Made by a program: the position numbers and the translations under genes. This document shows positions 465 to 28,526 of a stretch of DNA of 28,567 bases, in pieces. The notes beneath the pieces were generated by a model, which did no database searches, had not been told where the DNA came from, and was given only the letters and a program-made list of their open reading frames with translations. Position 1 is the stretch's first letter. Each line of letters begins with the position of its first letter. Origin of the DNA: a virus; the IMG/VR virus record IMGVR_UViG_3300010938_000117, positions 1 through 28,567 of that record, one strand, 5' to 3'.

Positions 465-974
465 ATGCAAGAGAAGATTTATAAGGGTGTTAAAAACAGC
501 TGGATTGAGCCGGCAGATTTTTCAACTGCCGAATATAAGCTTTTGCTTTCAATCCAACATCCTTCCCAAGCAAATCCTGTTGAGTTTCAATCAACAGTAG
601 AAAATAATCAATATAAGTTTGAAATTATTCCTGCAGATACAGAACAGCTTAGAGATGGTTATTGCGTTTACAATATTCGTGCGATTAATCTTATTGATGC
701 AGATGATATTCAATTCGTTTCTTCCGGAGTAGTCTATGTTACCCCATCAAATATTTCTTCAATGTCGGAACCTGCTTATGCTCTTTTGATGGTTGAAAAA
801 TTAAAAGCTGCAATATTATCACTCTCATCCAAAACTACTCAGTCAATTGTAATTGACGGGGATTCATACAGCTATCAGGATATTGATAAACTTACAAAGC
901 AGTTAGATTATTGGGAGCGCAAAGCAGGGATTAAAAAACAAGTTAAAGTTTTAGCGAGGTTTGTGAATGAATAA
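465..974 (+). CDS. gpW-like head-tail joining protein with N-terminal extension
   Basis: 169 residues. The C-terminal part (about 100-158) has the layout of lambda gpW: a helix 'LLMVEKLKAAILSLSS', a small hairpin around an 'IVIDGDSYSYQDI' stretch, then a helix 'DKLTKQLDYWERKAG'. Lambda gpW is only about 68 residues, so the first 100 residues are an extra, beta-rich domain resembling small Ig-like phage modules. In lambda, gpW completes the filled head before tail joining. Position supports the call, since W lies directly before portal B in lambda and here the gene overlaps the portal start by 8 nt (967-974). The start at 465 follows AAGGAT. The gpW assignment rests on pattern and synteny only. 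Confidence 0.6.
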   Translation: MQEKIYKGVKNSWIEPADFSTAEYKLLLSIQHPSQANPVEFQSTVENNQYKFEIIPADTEQLRDGYCVYNIRAINLIDADDIQFVSSGVVYVTPSNISSMSEPAYALLMVEKLKAAILSLSSKTTQSIVIDGDSYSYQDIDKLTKQLDYWERKAGIKKQVKVLARFVNE

Positions 975-2493
975 AACTATCGCAAAAATATTATTCAAGA
1001 TTCCTTTCATTCGTAGTATCGGAAAAAGTCAAGCGGATATAATTATACGTGCTTATAAAGCAGCACAAGCAAATCGTTTTACGTACAATTGGCTTGTTGA
1101 ATACGGCAGTATTAACAAGGAAATCAAACAGGATTATAAAGCACTGCTTTACAGAGCAAGAGATTTATGGAATAATAATGATTATGTGCGTGCTTATCGA
1201 AACAGAATAAGGGTAAACATAATCGGACCAGATGGAGTTATCTTACAAAACCGTGCTATTAAGTCAAATGGCGATGAAGATGATTTAGCAAATCAGGCAG
1301 TTGAAAATGCTTTTTACGATTGGATGAAGCCGGAGAATTGCACTCTTGCCGGTAATATTACTTTTGATGAACTTACTTATCTATGGCTTGATCAATTGAA
1401 AAGAGATGGAAATGTATTTATAAGAAAAGTAATTGCACCTGATACAAAATATGGTTTTGTATTGGAACCGCTTGAAGTTGATTTACTTGATGTTGATAAG
1501 AATGAAGAACTATCAAATGGCAATGTGGTTATTCTCGGAATTGAGTTTAATAAAATCCGCAAGCCGGTTGGTTATTGGTTTAAGCAGCAGAAAATGAAAG
1601 ATGAATTAACTGCGGTTAATTCTGTTATTTATAATTCAAACAATTCGGTTAGAGTGCCTGCAGAACAAATAATCCATTACTTTGACCGTGAAAGAAGCAA
1701 TCAGGTTATCGGTGTTACATCGCTTGCATCAATGATGTTAACGATGCACACGCTTGAAGGATACGAACAAGCTGCAGTTATTGCTGCAAGAATTGGTGCT
1801 GCAAAAGCAATGGTGATCGAATCAGAAAATCCGCCGGTTGAAACTGCTATTGGAGAAGAATCATCAAACAATAATGTAAGATACGATAATGTAAGTTACG
1901 GCGAAGTGTTATATCTGAATCCCGGAGAAAAATTAGCTTCATTTAATCCTGATTATCCACGAGATCAATATCCTTCATTCATAAAATCAGTTTTGAGAAA
2001 AATGGCTGCCGGACTTGGTGTTGCTTATGCAAACTGGGTTGGTGATCTGGAAAGTGTTAATTATTCATCAATGAGAGGGGGGACAATAGATGAAAGGGAT
2101 TTGTGGAAGTTAGAACATAAGAGGTTTGCTGAAAATATTCTTAAGCCAATTTTCTCGGAGTGGCTTAAATATGCTTTGATACAAGGCAGAATAATAATTG
2201 CAGGCAGGGTTGCAGATTATGATGAATACGAAAGATTAAATTATCCTGAATTCCCGGGAAGAAAATACGATTGGGTTGACCCTCTTAATGATGTGCAATC
2301 AGTTGAGTTAATGCTTAAAAATAATCTTACTACTCTAACTGAAGAACACGCAAAGATGGGGAAAGATTTTCGTGATTATCTGAAGGTGAGGAAAAGAGAG
2401 ATTGAAGCGCTGAAAGAAATAAAGCAAGCAGAGCTTGAGTTACTGCAAAAAGAAAATGAATTAAAATTATTAAAATCTTCTACTGGAGAGTAA
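967..2493 (+). CDS. portal protein, lambda gpB family
   Basis: 508 residues, the usual length for lambda-type portals (Phage_portal_2). It forms the dodecameric ring at the head vertex through which DNA enters and leaves and to which the tail docks. Family signs are 'NNDYVRAYRNRIRVNIIGP' near residue 75, a long wing region with 'FIRKV', 'GVTSLASMM' in the middle, and the family motif 'NYSSMRGG' followed by 'DERDLWKLEHKRFAENILKPIF' near 360-395. The last 50 residues form a charged coiled coil, perhaps facing scaffold or capsid. It overlaps the gpW-like gene upstream and is 1 nt from the protease-capsid gene downstream, so the three are probably translated together. Confidence 0.92.
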   Translation: MNKTIAKILFKIPFIRSIGKSQADIIIRAYKAAQANRFTYNWLVEYGSINKEIKQDYKALLYRARDLWNNNDYVRAYRNRIRVNIIGPDGVILQNRAIKSNGDEDDLANQAVENAFYDWMKPENCTLAGNITFDELTYLWLDQLKRDGNVFIRKVIAPDTKYGFVLEPLEVDLLDVDKNEELSNGNVVILGIEFNKIRKPVGYWFKQQKMKDELTAVNSVIYNSNNSVRVPAEQIIHYFDRERSNQVIGVTSLASMMLTMHTLEGYEQAAVIAARIGAAKAMVIESENPPVETAIGEESSNNNVRYDNVSYGEVLYLNPGEKLASFNPDYPRDQYPSFIKSVLRKMAAGLGVAYANWVGDLESVNYSSMRGGTIDERDLWKLEHKRFAENILKPIFSEWLKYALIQGRIIIAGRVADYDEYERLNYPEFPGRKYDWVDPLNDVQSVELMLKNNLTTLTEEHAKMGKDFRDYLKVRKREIEALKEIKQAELELLQKENELKLLKSSTGE

Positions 2494-2494
2494 A

Positions 2495-4372
2495 ATGAAT
2501 AAACTAAAAGAAAGAAAACCGGAATATAAAAATATTTTCAGCCGTGAAGCCAATATAGTCCGTGTTGATGGTACTGAAGGATTTGAAAATGTTATTGCAA
2601 CAGAACAGCCGGTAATTGTTTTTGATTGGTTTGAATTTAAGCCAATCCGTGAAATGCTTTTAATTGACGGTGTTGAGCTGCCTGAATCGAAACAAGTTGT
2701 GCTGCTTGATTCACATTCGAGATTTCAGCTTAGCGATATAAAGGGTTCAACAAGAAACATTCATCCTGAAAATGATGAAAGATTAGGGAGAGTTTTGGTT
2801 GGAACTACAGTGCTTGCGCACAATGCGGAAGATGAAAAGCAATTGATTAGAGATGGTCATCTCACAAGCACATCAATCGGTTATCAGGTTTACGATGATT
2901 ACACAATCAGGATACCACCGGGAAAATCTACAGAAGTGAACGGAAGGGTAATTAAAAATGAATTTGCAAAGCGAGATTTATTAGTGAGAACAAAATGGCG
3001 CTTGCTTGAAAATTCATTGGTTGCAATCGGAGCAGATAGTGCTGCAAAATTCAGATCATACTTTGATGAATTAGAAGATGGCGATCTCGAAAGAATTCTG
3101 GAAGAAAAAATAGAAAATAAATTAACAATCAAACTAAAGGAGAAAAAAATGGATAATCACGCAGCTGAAACACACACTGAGGAGTTGAAGAGAGTCAGCG
3201 CAATTCAAAAACTTGCTGAGGATTTCAAAGACAAGGTCAAGGGGGTTGATCTTAAAACCGTTGCGAATGCTTTTGTTACAGGCGAGAAATCTGCAAGAGA
3301 TTTTTCTGACTTCATTTTGAAAAATATGGTGCAGGAAAATCAGTCTGCAATAAACAAGCCCGTTGTTGAACTCGCTCCCAAGGAAATTAAAGAATACTCA
3401 ATCGGAAGAGCAATAAGATCTTTGCTCACAGGTGAGAATTGCTTTGAAGCTGAAGTAAGCCGTGAGATGGCTAAAAAATTTGGCGAAACAAAAGGTATCT
3501 ATGTACCGCACGAAGGAGTTGCTGTTAAATTACAGAGAGATTTAGCTGCAGGTGGTACCAACACAGGTAAAGAGTTGGTGGGAACTGATCTTCTTGGCAA
3601 TCAATTTATTGATTACCTATATAACAAGATGATCGTTTCAAAAGCAGGTGTTCAATTCTTAACTGGCTTGCAGGGAAATGTTTCAATTCCGAAATTATCT
3701 TCTTCTGCCGGATATGGTTGGGCTGCAACTGAAAACGCTGCATTAGCAGAAGGAACACCGGGAACTTTAAGTGTTGATTTATCGCCAAAGAGAGGTGGAA
3801 GATATGTTGATGTTTCTTCTCAGCTATTGATTCAGGGAAATCCGTCTGCTGAAAGATTAGTAGCAAATGATCTTGTTAAATCTGCTGCAGTAGCACTCGA
3901 TGCTGCAATACTGCACGGTTCAGGAACAAGCGGTCAGCCAAAAGGTGTAGCTGCTACATCCGGAGTTGGCAGTGTAACTGGCACAAGTATTACTTACGCT
4001 GGGTTGATGGAATTTATCACTGATGTTGAAACTGCAAACGCCGATGCTGAGACAATGGCATTTATCACCAATCCAGTTATACGTGGTACATTTATGACCA
4101 AACCTCAAGTCTCCGGACAACCAGTTTATTACATTAATTCTAACAAAGAATTATTTGGTTATCCTGTTTATGCAACTAATCAGGTTAATTCCGGTTATAT
4201 GTTCTTCGGCGACTGGACTCAGGTACTCGTCGGTTTATGGGGGGGACTTGAATTGTTGGTTGATCCTTATACACAAGCTACAAGTGGACTGGTAAGATTG
4301 ATTGCAAGTCAGTTTGTAGATATTGCAGTAAGACATCCTGGTGCATTTTCAGTATCAAGCAATATTTCTTGA
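2495..4372 (+). CDS. prohead protease fused to HK97-fold major capsid protein
   Basis: 625 residues holding two phage head proteins in one frame. Residues about 15-190 resemble HK97-type prohead protease (family U35), with a likely catalytic His at 74 ('LLDSHSR') and Ser at 125 or 127 ('HLTSTSIGY'). Residues about 219-300 form a helical delta/scaffold-like region. Residues about 300-625 are an HK97-fold capsid, with 'GKELVGTDLLGNQFIDYLYNK', 'IPKLSSSAGYGWAATENAA', 'DAAILHGSG' and a C-terminal 'VDIAVRHPGAF'. The protease normally cuts the delta domain from capsid subunits during head maturation. Protease-capsid fusions are known in other phages. Here an internal start at 3149 with a strong ribosome binding site would also yield capsid alone. 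Confidence 0.9.
   Translation: MNKLKERKPEYKNIFSREANIVRVDGTEGFENVIATEQPVIVFDWFEFKPIREMLLIDGVELPESKQVVLLDSHSRFQLSDIKGSTRNIHPENDERLGRVLVGTTVLAHNAEDEKQLIRDGHLTSTSIGYQVYDDYTIRIPPGKSTEVNGRVIKNEFAKRDLLVRTKWRLLENSLVAIGADSAAKFRSYFDELEDGDLERILEEKIENKLTIKLKEKKMDNHAAETHTEELKRVSAIQKLAEDFKDKVKGVDLKTVANAFVTGEKSARDFSDFILKNMVQENQSAINKPVVELAPKEIKEYSIGRAIRSLLTGENCFEAEVSREMAKKFGETKGIYVPHEGVAVKLQRDLAAGGTNTGKELVGTDLLGNQFIDYLYNKMIVSKAGVQFLTGLQGNVSIPKLSSSAGYGWAATENAALAEGTPGTLSVDLSPKRGGRYVDVSSQLLIQGNPSAERLVANDLVKSAAVALDAAILHGSGTSGQPKGVAATSGVGSVTGTSITYAGLMEFITDVETANADAETMAFITNPVIRGTFMTKPQVSGQPVYYINSNKELFGYPVYATNQVNSGYMFFGDWTQVLVGLWGGLELLVDPYTQATSGLVRLIASQFVDIAVRHPGAFSVSSNIS
3149..4372 (+). CDS. nested in-frame capsid product from an internal start
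   Basis: ATG at 3149 lies in the frame of the fusion gene and is preceded by AAAGGAG (3136-3142) with a 6-nt spacer, as good a ribosome binding site as any in the window. It falls exactly at the junction between protease and delta/capsid domains (Met219 of the fusion). Initiation here would give a 407-residue delta-plus-capsid protein, so many capsid copies could be made for each protease copy. The site is seen directly; its use is inferred. A comparable logic is lambda's nested C/Nu3 genes. Confidence 0.65.
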   Translation: MDNHAAETHTEELKRVSAIQKLAEDFKDKVKGVDLKTVANAFVTGEKSARDFSDFILKNMVQENQSAINKPVVELAPKEIKEYSIGRAIRSLLTGENCFEAEVSREMAKKFGETKGIYVPHEGVAVKLQRDLAAGGTNTGKELVGTDLLGNQFIDYLYNKMIVSKAGVQFLTGLQGNVSIPKLSSSAGYGWAATENAALAEGTPGTLSVDLSPKRGGRYVDVSSQLLIQGNPSAERLVANDLVKSAAVALDAAILHGSGTSGQPKGVAATSGVGSVTGTSITYAGLMEFITDVETANADAETMAFITNPVIRGTFMTKPQVSGQPVYYINSNKELFGYPVYATNQVNSGYMFFGDWTQVLVGLWGGLELLVDPYTQATSGLVRLIASQFVDIAVRHPGAFSVSSNIS

Positions 4373-18095: not shown

Positions 18096-18308
18096 ATGGA
18101 TAAATTTATTATAGAATTTAGCAAAAACTGCGAATGCTATAAAGTTATCTTTGGTAATATGGATGTTGATTTAGAACAAATATTCCGTGCAATTAGAGGT
18201 ATTTTAATCTCTTTAAGCTGGGATGAAGAAGTAATAAATAACTATATAATTGAATTAGCAGAAGAACTCAAACAAAATAAAGGAGAAAAAGATGGAATGG
18301 TTATTTAA
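18096..18308 (+). CDS. hypothetical protein in the lysis cassette
   Basis: 70 residues, acidic, mostly helical after residue 25 ('DLEQIFRAIRGILISLSWDEEVINNYIIELAEEL'), no membrane span. It overlaps the next gene by 17 nt, with the downstream ribosome binding site inside it. No family is recognised. It could modulate holin timing, but that is only position-based. Confidence 0.55.
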   Translation: MDKFIIEFSKNCECYKVIFGNMDVDLEQIFRAIRGILISLSWDEEVINNYIIELAEELKQNKGEKDGMVI

Positions 18309-21471: not shown

Positions 21472-21495
21472 TTTCCCTGACATTTTCCCTGACAT
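21472..21495. repeat. tandem repeat TTTCCCTGACAT x2 at the integrase end
   Basis: Two perfect adjacent 12-nt copies (21472-21483 and 21484-21495) run up to the stop codon of the integrase gene. Tandem repeats beside attP are typical of integrase arm-type sites. Confidence 0.6.
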
Positions 21496-22463
21496 TATTT
21501 TATCTCTGGTGCTATCTTACGGATGTCAACATCGACATAATATTTTAATGTTGTGCGTATATCTTTATGCCTCATTAGTTTTTGTAATTTATATGGACTC
21601 ATTCCGTTCTGTGCTTGGATGGTGCCAAATTTTCTTCTTAGATCATGTAAGCTGTATTTAGGCAAATTTAATTTTTCAAGTGCTCTGTACCAGAATTTCA
21701 ATCCATCTTTTGAATAATTTAGAAGTTTATCTTTCGATTTAGGAATTAATGCCAGCAGTTTTTCGAGACGATCGTAAATAGGGAATGAATCAACTCTTTT
21801 ATCTTTTGTGGTTTTTACTTTTATTATTTTTTCATTTAAGTCAATATCGTTCCAGGTCAATGATAAAACTTCGTTTCGCCTGAAGCCGGTTAGCAGCAAA
21901 AATTTTACAAGACAATACTGATTAAGATTATGTACACGCAAATACCAAAGCAATTTATGCAGATGTTCATCAGGAATGATTCTTTTAAAGGTTTGCTGTG
22001 GCTTAAACTTAAAGTTAATCGGATTTTCTGAAATATAATTTTTCTTTATGCACCAATTAAAAAATATTTTCAGGTGATTAAGATAATTATTGACGCTGTT
22101 CTCAGATAATCTTTCCAATAATTTTACACGAAACATTTTCATTTGGTGGGGATTGTAAGATGTGAGAAGGTTATCGCCTTCGTTCTGGACTAAAGTTTTA
22201 ATCGCAACGATGTAATTGGTTATATATTTTGTTTCTAAAATTTTTTCCTGAAGAAATTCCTGCGCAACATCTATAAGGGTTATTTTATTTATTGCAAATC
22301 GATGATGCTTTATATTGATTGCATCTTCATACTTTTTCTTTAGCTCAAGTGCGATGGATTTATTTGCTGTAGTGGCTTTAATCCTTAATGATTTTTGTTT
22401 GTGTTTGCCATCTACATAGTAATCAATCCACCAATAATTGCCACGTTTATAGATTGATGCCAT
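21495..22463 (-). CDS. int: tyrosine recombinase (phage integrase)
   Basis: 322 residues, the usual length. Residues about 1-50 form an arm-binding-like N-terminus ('IYKRGNYWWIDYYVDGK'). About 60-150 is the SAM-like core-binding domain. About 160-322 is the catalytic domain with 'LLTGFRRNEVLSLTW' (Arg195), a Lys in the 'VKTTKDKRVDSFP' hairpin, 'SLHDLRRKFG' (His273, Arg276), 'LMRHKDIRTTLKYY' (His299) and the nucleophile Tyr308. It would recombine the attP core at 21355 with a host tRNA-Ala gene. It is read leftward and overlaps the repressor gene by 17 nt, so the two are probably co-translated. Confidence 0.95.
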   Translation of the reverse strand: MASIYKRGNYWWIDYYVDGKHKQKSLRIKATTANKSIALELKKKYEDAINIKHHRFAINKITLIDVAQEFLQEKILETKYITNYIVAIKTLVQNEGDNLLTSYNPHQMKMFRVKLLERLSENSVNNYLNHLKIFFNWCIKKNYISENPINFKFKPQQTFKRIIPDEHLHKLLWYLRVHNLNQYCLVKFLLLTGFRRNEVLSLTWNDIDLNEKIIKVKTTKDKRVDSFPIYDRLEKLLALIPKSKDKLLNYSKDGLKFWYRALEKLNLPKYSLHDLRRKFGTIQAQNGMSPYKLQKLMRHKDIRTTLKYYVDVDIRKIAPEIK

Positions 22464-27944: not shown

Positions 27945-28526
27945 ATGAAAAATATTAACACCAACAAGATTAGTTATCTTTTTGGCTCTCACAAGAAAGA
28001 TAGTAACAAAATAATCAGGATGGCTGTAAATAGAGCAGCGAATGATGCAATATCTGCAGCTCGTAAAAAGATCAGGGATGACTGGAATATTCCACTTAAA
28101 GAATTAACAGATAAAAATATTGTAAAGTTTTTTCCTGCCAGGGGAGACAAGATAACAGCATCTTTTGAAATAAAATATCGTGGTGTTCCGCTCATTAAGT
28201 ACAAAATTAAACCTAGGAGAGTAATTAAAAAAAGGACAAGAGAGCAATTAACGGTTGAAGAGCAAAAAGGTAAGCCAAGAAAAATTAAGGGTGCATTCAT
28301 TGCTCAAACTAAACTAGGAATGAATGTTTATATGCGAACATCAAAATCAAGACCGATTAAGATAAGATCTAATCCAAGAGTATGGTTTATTTTGCCTATT
28401 GCTAAGTTGTACGGTCCTAGTGCAATGCAATTGTATTCGGCGAAACAAACTAAGGATGTAATTAAAAACAAATACTTTGTACAATATAAAAAAGAATATG
28501 ATAGACTTCTAAAAACAAAAATTTGA
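27945..28526 (+). CDS. minor tail protein Z-like
   Basis: 193 residues against 192 in lambda gpZ. The pattern agrees along the length: 'RMAVNRAANDAISAARKKIRDD' near the start (gpZ: AMAINRVASSAIS...), 'GVPLIKYKIKPRRVIKK' in the middle, 'KGAFIAQTKLGMNVYMR' and 'PIKIRSNP' later, and a C-terminal 'LYGPSAMQLY' with a helix. gpZ completes the tail before joining to the head. AAAGGAG precedes the ATG. In lambda, Z lies between FII and U; here it lies after the replication genes, probably just before the terminase genes. Confidence 0.75.
   Translation: MKNINTNKISYLFGSHKKDSNKIIRMAVNRAANDAISAARKKIRDDWNIPLKELTDKNIVKFFPARGDKITASFEIKYRGVPLIKYKIKPRRVIKKRTREQLTVEEQKGKPRKIKGAFIAQTKLGMNVYMRTSKSRPIKIRSNPRVWFILPIAKLYGPSAMQLYSAKQTKDVIKNKYFVQYKKEYDRLLKTKI

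Follow-up and report, generated by a model that had tools for sequence, protein, structure and literature searches.

The fusion gene of the phage studied here encodes an S78-like prohead protease, a delta domain and an HK97-fold capsid in a single reading frame, and at the border between the protease and the delta-capsid part it carries an in-frame ATG behind a Shine-Dalgarno (SD) sequence. We conclude that this site is, in all likelihood, a working nested translation start that yields the fusion and a delta-capsid precursor from one gene, and from it we infer the two products, their ratio, their co-assembly and the self-release of the protease. The argument draws on the window, by which we mean the whole stretch of DNA analyzed (an AT-rich IMG/VR viral record of 28,567 bases), and above all on its relatives, here given as loci with L numbers.

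Results

The C-terminal part of the fusion has the HK97 capsid fold, matching PF05065 (E 8e-31), phrog_617 (E 9.9e-80), the chain 8gta_A (E 4.3e-32) and also TIGR01554, and in a fold search the modeled capsid matched HK97 chains (Table 1). Positions 8-262 of NF045541 ("prohead protease/major capsid protein fusion protein") align to fusion residues 30-288 with E 2.9e-23, a match that puts a prohead protease of the S78 type in the N-terminal part of the ORF that encodes the capsid. The score of 82.3 bits does not reach the curated cutoff of 525 bits, and on sequence grounds we regard the window fusion as a relative, not a member, of this narrow model. A profile search with PF04586 gave no match in the window fusion and weak matches in its relatives L018 and L174, while TIGR01543 scored E 0.022 against the window fusion. 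Residues H74 and S127, which we take to be catalytic, are invariant across the 29 rows of the alignment. The AlphaFold model of the 625-residue fusion (mean pLDDT, 75.8; pTM, 0.49) contains a beta-rich protease domain at about residues 29-188, a helix spanning 223-243, and the capsid beyond about residue 295; Met219 falls in the low-confidence linker, four residues ahead of the first delta helix.

Table 1. Features of the fusion gene and its surroundings, in window coordinates
Feature	Position	Strand	Basis and remarks
Portal gene upstream; its stop adjoins the fusion start	967..2493	+	PF05136; coordinates
GGAG Shine-Dalgarno of the fusion's own start	2485..2488	+	Sequence; -6.4 kcal/mol
Protease-delta-capsid fusion ORF	2495..4372	+	625 aa; PF05065 at 369-620, NF045541 and phrog_4523 on the N part, phrog_617 over 79-623
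S78-like prohead protease domain, residues about 29-188	2579..3058	+	AlphaFold model; NF045541, N part
Linker region, residues about 189-222, containing the nested start	3059..3160	+	pLDDT <50 at 189-198 and 207-222
AAAGGAG internal Shine-Dalgarno	3136..3142	+	Sequence; -8.7 kcal/mol
AAAAAA (A6) spacer; A7 run when the A of ATG is added	3143..3148	+	Sequence
Internal ATG, codon 219, in frame	3149..3151	+	Sequence; (3149-2495)/3 = 218
Predicted nested gene, 407-aa delta-capsid precursor	3149..4372	+	Predicted from the internal start
Helical delta (scaffold) domain, residues about 223-290	3161..3364	+	Model; putative scaffold role, after HK97
HK97-fold capsid domain, residues about 295-625	3377..4369	+	PF05065; 8gta_A by fold and sequence

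Elsewhere in the window, a tyrosine integrase gene (21495-22463, minus strand; PF00589, phrog_1) makes it probable that the phage is temperate, and a Minor_tail_Z (GPZ) match lies at 27945-28526, at the far end of the contig, past the integrase and replication-type genes. The best-scoring relative of the window fusion, L186, comes from an Ignavibacteriales MAG (37%); a host of that kind would be a guess, as the tree puts the window in no starred group.

The initial annotation had reported an AAAGGAG and a well-spaced in-frame ATG at the border between the protease and the delta-capsid domains, and the coordinates confirm it (3136-3151; codon 219 of 625). The predicted SD duplex is -8.7 kcal/mol at 3149 versus -6.4 at the fusion's own start at 2495; among 30 hand-picked gene starts of the window, with a mean SD of -6.0, two are stronger than the internal site and two are equal to it. 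The exact pattern AAAGGAG-N6-ATG occurs twice in the 28,567 bases, both strands considered (at 3136, and at 18279 ahead of an ORF at 18292), compared with a mean of 0.11 in shuffled sequences, where two occurrences were reached in 1 of 100. The looser pattern AAGGAG-N4-9-ATG occurs five times versus 1.64 expected, a count reached by 4 of 100 shuffles. Because the window is AT-rich and the looser pattern is matched this often, the site could be luck by the evidence of the window alone, and the argument is carried by the relatives. An internal promoter was considered as the source of a short product and gained no support: the 18 sigma-70-like matches between 400 and 5500 are no excess over the 17.3 found in shuffles, though one of them (3122-3150) overlaps the internal site.

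At least 68 phage records match the fusion, 22 of them across at least 80% of the query. Relatives were chosen by likeness to the window protein, as the best 80 of 421 viral relatives and the best 80 of 82 genome relatives; L001, L012, L013 and L109 were removed as duplicates. Nine of the 68 phage records entered the set, and phages R4C and RcBaka were read separately, outside the counts. The matches listed comprise 187 capsid-bearing loci, counting the window: 172 are fused, 1 is split and 14 lack a protease in the ORF, 3 of the latter (L051, L071, and L113) being open at a contig end; the 172 are the fused genes among the matches listed, not the whole family. From the set, 101 representatives, window included, were picked greedily below 70% identity. 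The site in each gene was taken to be the linker ATG with the best SD, a rule under which some picks may be wrong (that in L011 probably is) and under which the controls were also run. Phage ES18, supposed to carry a fusion, was dropped, its putative coat gene being separate. A quick tree intermingles the fused and split forms; its starred branches force at least five changes, and the fused and split labels cluster no more than shuffled labels do. With the two states alternating within the family tree, fusion and fission of protease and capsid genes may be frequent.

Absence of the site from relatives, which the initial annotation had named as grounds for giving up the idea, was looked for and is not what the genes present: among the matches listed, each of the 172 fused ORFs, window included, has an in-frame ATG at its border, and in 126 of 172 the SD predicted ahead of it reaches -5 kcal/mol or better. 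The two best-scoring relatives read AAAGGAG-ATAAAA-ATG (L002) and AAGGAG-AGAAAAAA-ATG (L186).

Presence of the ATG alone is modest evidence, control segments having one in 77% of cases: the border ATG is found in 101/101 representatives versus 523/675 equal-length segments of the same genes (Fisher p 7e-11, the segments not being independent). An SD of -5 or better is found at the border in 75/101 versus 123/675 of the segments (p 7e-29, again with segments that are not independent). It accompanies 13% of the other internal ATGs (n = 1356) and appears in 17/101 and 1/101 of the same linkers when these are read in frames +1 and +2, which contain any ATG in 72 and 4 of 101. The adjacent delta-to-capsid stretch yields 14/90, and linkers with a single ATG, where the rule leaves no choice, yield 40/59. 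When codons were shuffled within each gene so as to preserve the protein, 200 shuffles averaged 45.4 and peaked at 55/101, versus the observed 75. By the segment, frame, neighboring-stretch, shuffle and single-ATG controls, both the residues and the codons of the border are arranged for an in-frame SD. The controls for position, frame, codon choice and neighboring stretch favor a maintained start, one that persists even among far-removed relatives and probably lets these phages make plain capsid protein alongside the fusion.

Synonymous divergence in related pairs is low at the SD codons (0.01, 0.08) and low at most downstream codons too, and in the 122 of 877 pairs that were usable (from 47 genes) clear extra synonymous conservation at the SD was not found. 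At 8 of 12 loci where the capsid ORF lacks a protease, that ORF opens with an SD-ATG at about -5 or stronger, and 7 of those 8 start 74-98 aa before the capsid profile; the predicted nested product of the fused genes has a median length of 435 aa, with the capsid profile beginning a median of 90 aa in. The strength of the site SD correlates weakly with that of the next gene (Spearman 0.20, p 0.053).

Several other properties of the border are those of a start. At the border ATG, GC content is down to 41%, from 54-62% in the flanks (40-90 bases upstream, 20-90 bases downstream). Structure is also lower at the site than elsewhere in its own linker in 96 of 101 cases. Composition accounts for this low structure, since site windows fold as weakly as sequences shuffled from their bases; a further effect of local RNA structure was looked for and not found. 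The border Met is followed in about 79% of cases by E, S, T, D or K, unlike other internal Mets, and this next residue so looks N-terminal. In the KILRDASGNLVRA-type group, whose delta begins like MKILRDASGNLVRA, residues ahead of the Met are variable and the Met marks a rise in conservation, in a profile of 21 rows (the KILRD group) that is partly biased, its rows having been selected for RD or RN in the ten residues that follow the Met, and in which 4 rows are of other types.

The border SD falls short of -5 in 26 of the 101 representatives and is weaker than -4 in 18. Eleven of these 18 weakest sites belong to named cyanobacteria (L155, L173, and L187) or to the tree group that holds cyanophage S-CBS3 (L011, L034, L036, L060, L087, L089, L091, and L092). 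Mean gene SD was -3.3 and -3.2 in the two cyanophages checked versus -6.0 in VP882 and -4.7 in ep3, calculated from hand-picked genes (S-CBS3, 38/46; S-LBS1, 39/52; VP882, 35/71; ep3, 40/51; window, 30) from which mostly short or overlapping genes were left out. All 18 of the weakest sites retain the ATG, and 16 are still less structured than their own gene. Weak-SD sites may thus belong to hosts that rely less on the SD. The cyanophage or cyanobacterial fusions L006, L011, L155, L173 and L187 keep the border ATG with an SD that is weak or absent, and such fusions should be useful for the study of SD-independent starts.

Other domain combinations were also considered. In Pseudomonas phage F10, the fusion partners are a ClpP protease and a capsid from a different Pfam family (PF00574, PF25209), the kind of fusion described for phage MD8 in the accessible text of PMC8508860. 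Where the ClpP domain ends, 12 of 12 genes (F10 with 11 of 80 loci, the remaining loci being mostly near-copies) have an ATG with an AGGA-type SD ahead of it, a site that was chosen after looking, as one common to the genes. Codon shuffles of these genes (300) gave a mean of 6.0 and a maximum of 11/12, and the observed mean energy was reached by 1 of 300. Stronger SD-like ATGs, to -12.1, lie inside the ClpP domain of F10-type genes (F10 and 15 of 80 loci). The ClpP-type fusions give a signal similar to that of the S78-type set and weaker. Fusions of the F10/MD8 type, with a border SD-ATG in the 12 of 12 genes looked at, are found at L196:4387-6468 and at L252-L276.

Rhodobacter phage RcBaka has a gene (L277:1454-3496) annotated as "major capsid and protease fusion protein," whose capsid is like that of F10 (36%) and whose protease end, by our own reading of the sequence, appears to be of the S78 type. 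An AAAGGA-type SD and an ATG follow the protease at codon 214 (-5.6), and codons 93 (GTG, -6.0) and 172 (-5.7) score slightly above this border codon. We take the F10-type and RcBaka sets as support and not as proof.

In phage R4C, the fusion gene encodes 629 aa, and its strongest linker start is codon 189 (CGGAGG, -9.5). The accessible text of PMC10276861 assigns the 415 copies of the virion's major capsid protein to this gene; a text search of that paper, as far as its text was accessible, did not find the word "protease." The deposited capsid chain, at 268 aa, fits the last 268 of the 629 residues, so the modeled R4C shell has neither protease nor delta. This chain fits a nested start, and it fits equally well the synthesis of full-length protein followed by later cleavage, the two products being indistinguishable from a virion chain without delta.

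Discussion

Our model is that ribosomes entering at the SD of 2495 would make the 625-aa protease-delta-capsid fusion, while those entering at 3136-3151, on the same mRNA and in the same frame, would make a 407-aa delta-capsid precursor of the HK97 gp5 kind. Since the two products share the delta and capsid domains, they would be expected to co-assemble. The fusion, as the minority subunit, would carry the protease into the prohead by way of this shared part, and the protease, once inside, would cleave the delta domains and release itself. A few fusions among many plain capsids fits the stronger internal SD of the window; in ten genes, the internal SD was stronger than that of the fusion in 6, equal in 1 and weaker in 3, so the ratio is one that we infer. 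According to the accessible text of PMC10275583, the HK97 scaffold can be one-to-one with the capsid, and a one-to-one protease is therefore possible in principle.

If only the full fusion were made, the protease could instead be trimmed from each subunit by proteolysis of the linker, and the internal SD-ATG would be incidental to the residues there. The linker is indeed modeled at low confidence, as an open cleavage site would be, and its residues alone raise the number of SD-like strings, the shuffles averaging 45 of 101 versus 18% of control segments. We nevertheless consider this unlikely: the observed 75 exceeds every one of the 200 shuffles, the other two frames of the same linkers fall far below it at 17 and 1, and the universal ATG among the matches listed, the GC dip and the rise in conservation at the Met are all unpredicted by proteolysis. 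Somewhat less probable still is an unused relic of a formerly separate capsid gene, left behind when loss of a stop codon fused the two. This idea keeps some weight because fused and split states alternate on the tree, in the manner described above, and split homologues begin at a similar place. A relic would, however, be expected to decay across such divergence, and codon choice still favors the SD; moreover, a 55-row group (support 94, under the 95 mark) contains 54 fused families, and its single "split" row, L154, starts at base 14 of the contig, none of its first 36 codons being a start codon.

The A7 run at 3143-3149 suggests two further explanations. Together with the SD-like string upstream it might be a programmed -1 slip site that ends translation and releases free protease, and a -1 shift would indeed run into a stop two codons on in the window and four codons on in L186, which also has A7. 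A7 occurs at the start in 2 of 101 representatives, whereas the ATG with its SD is general, and A-rich spacers precede other starts of the window; slippage was therefore rejected as a general mechanism, and we consider it very improbable. A sequencing indel in the same run could have joined two ordinary genes, given that the -1 and +1 frames past it stop within 2 and 12 codons and a single base would separate them. The two best-scoring relatives are nevertheless fused, L002 without A7 and L186, as are 172 of 187 loci among the matches listed, and this source of the fusion was rejected as scarcely credible. A maintained nested start thus remains our preferred reading of the border site.

Whether the same holds for phage protease-capsid fusions at large is a separate question, on which we lean somewhat toward a positive answer. 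Nested in-frame capsid starts would then be a general and repeatedly evolved property, found with S78 and PF05065, with ClpP and Phage_capsid_4, and with the S78-like and F10-like pair of RcBaka; fusion would be tolerated as the capsid keeps its own ribosome site, and each annotation of "one protein" would hide two. The odds of this general reading are lowered by the stronger SD-like starts elsewhere in the F10 and RcBaka genes.

If the proposal is true, a large family of phage capsid genes annotated as encoding one protein encodes two, and changing a single codon would suffice to test how protease dose is set in these heads. The proposal bears as well on cryo-EM work such as that on R4C, in which the gene given as the source of the 415 subunits codes for a protease-like domain too.

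That such fusions are known elsewhere, as the initial annotation had stated, is borne out by the phage record matches, phrog_617, NF045541 and the accessible text of PMC8508860. Protease-capsid fusions are described in what was accessible of PMC8508860 (Pseudomonas MD8 gp5), PMC6536676 and PMC11409702 (LC2 and LC3); these, like the members of phrog_617 and NF045541, appear to be the same kind of one-gene fusion as that of the window. In the accessible text of the MD8 paper (PMC8508860), the word "internal" has 0 occurrences and a nested start is not described, and its reference list includes the paper on the lambda C/Nu3 overlap. An internal capsid start is likewise not described in the accessible portions of PMC13274417, PMC6536676, PMC10305713, PMC7996906, PMC10457771, PMC8508860, PMC3185693, PMC10276861, PMC11409702 and PMC10275583. 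In the literature searched, which gave partial coverage and included few subscription papers, no account was found of a protease fusion with a nested start for the major capsid protein.

Known already, then, are nested genes for a protease and its partner, as in lambda C/Nu3, and protease-capsid fusions; the window would add to them a nested start that serves the major capsid protein. In lambda, an in-frame internal start in the protease gene C gives the downstream domain, Nu3, alone and in a different amount. The window fusion would resemble this system in drawing a protease and its partner from one frame through an in-frame internal start: past the protease domain, its gene has an in-frame start codon with an SD. 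By the position, frame, codon-choice and neighboring-stretch controls, though not by clear extra synonymous conservation in related pairs, this site is conserved more than the protein alone would require. The nested product of lambda is a scaffold and its capsid gene is separate, whereas the predicted product of the window is delta and the capsid itself, so the site would work like C/Nu3 without being an instance of it. If the proposal is true, the nested-gene logic of C/Nu3 extends to the major capsid protein, and several unlike domain combinations can be compared. The tripartite capsid gene of Gifsy-2 joins a ClpP-like protease, a central domain and a capsid in one gene. In herpesviruses, the UL26 protease-scaffold and the UL26.5 scaffold alone share their C-terminal part; there a separate internal mRNA is used, whereas an internal ribosome site is proposed for the window fusion.

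There is also a likeness in the arrangement of parts to HK97, whose delta domain is described in the accessible text of PMC8508860 and in which the gp4 protease stands next to the delta-capsid precursor gp5. Protease and capsid are two separate genes in HK97, whereas in the window a single gene would supply both the protease-bearing fusion and the precursor.
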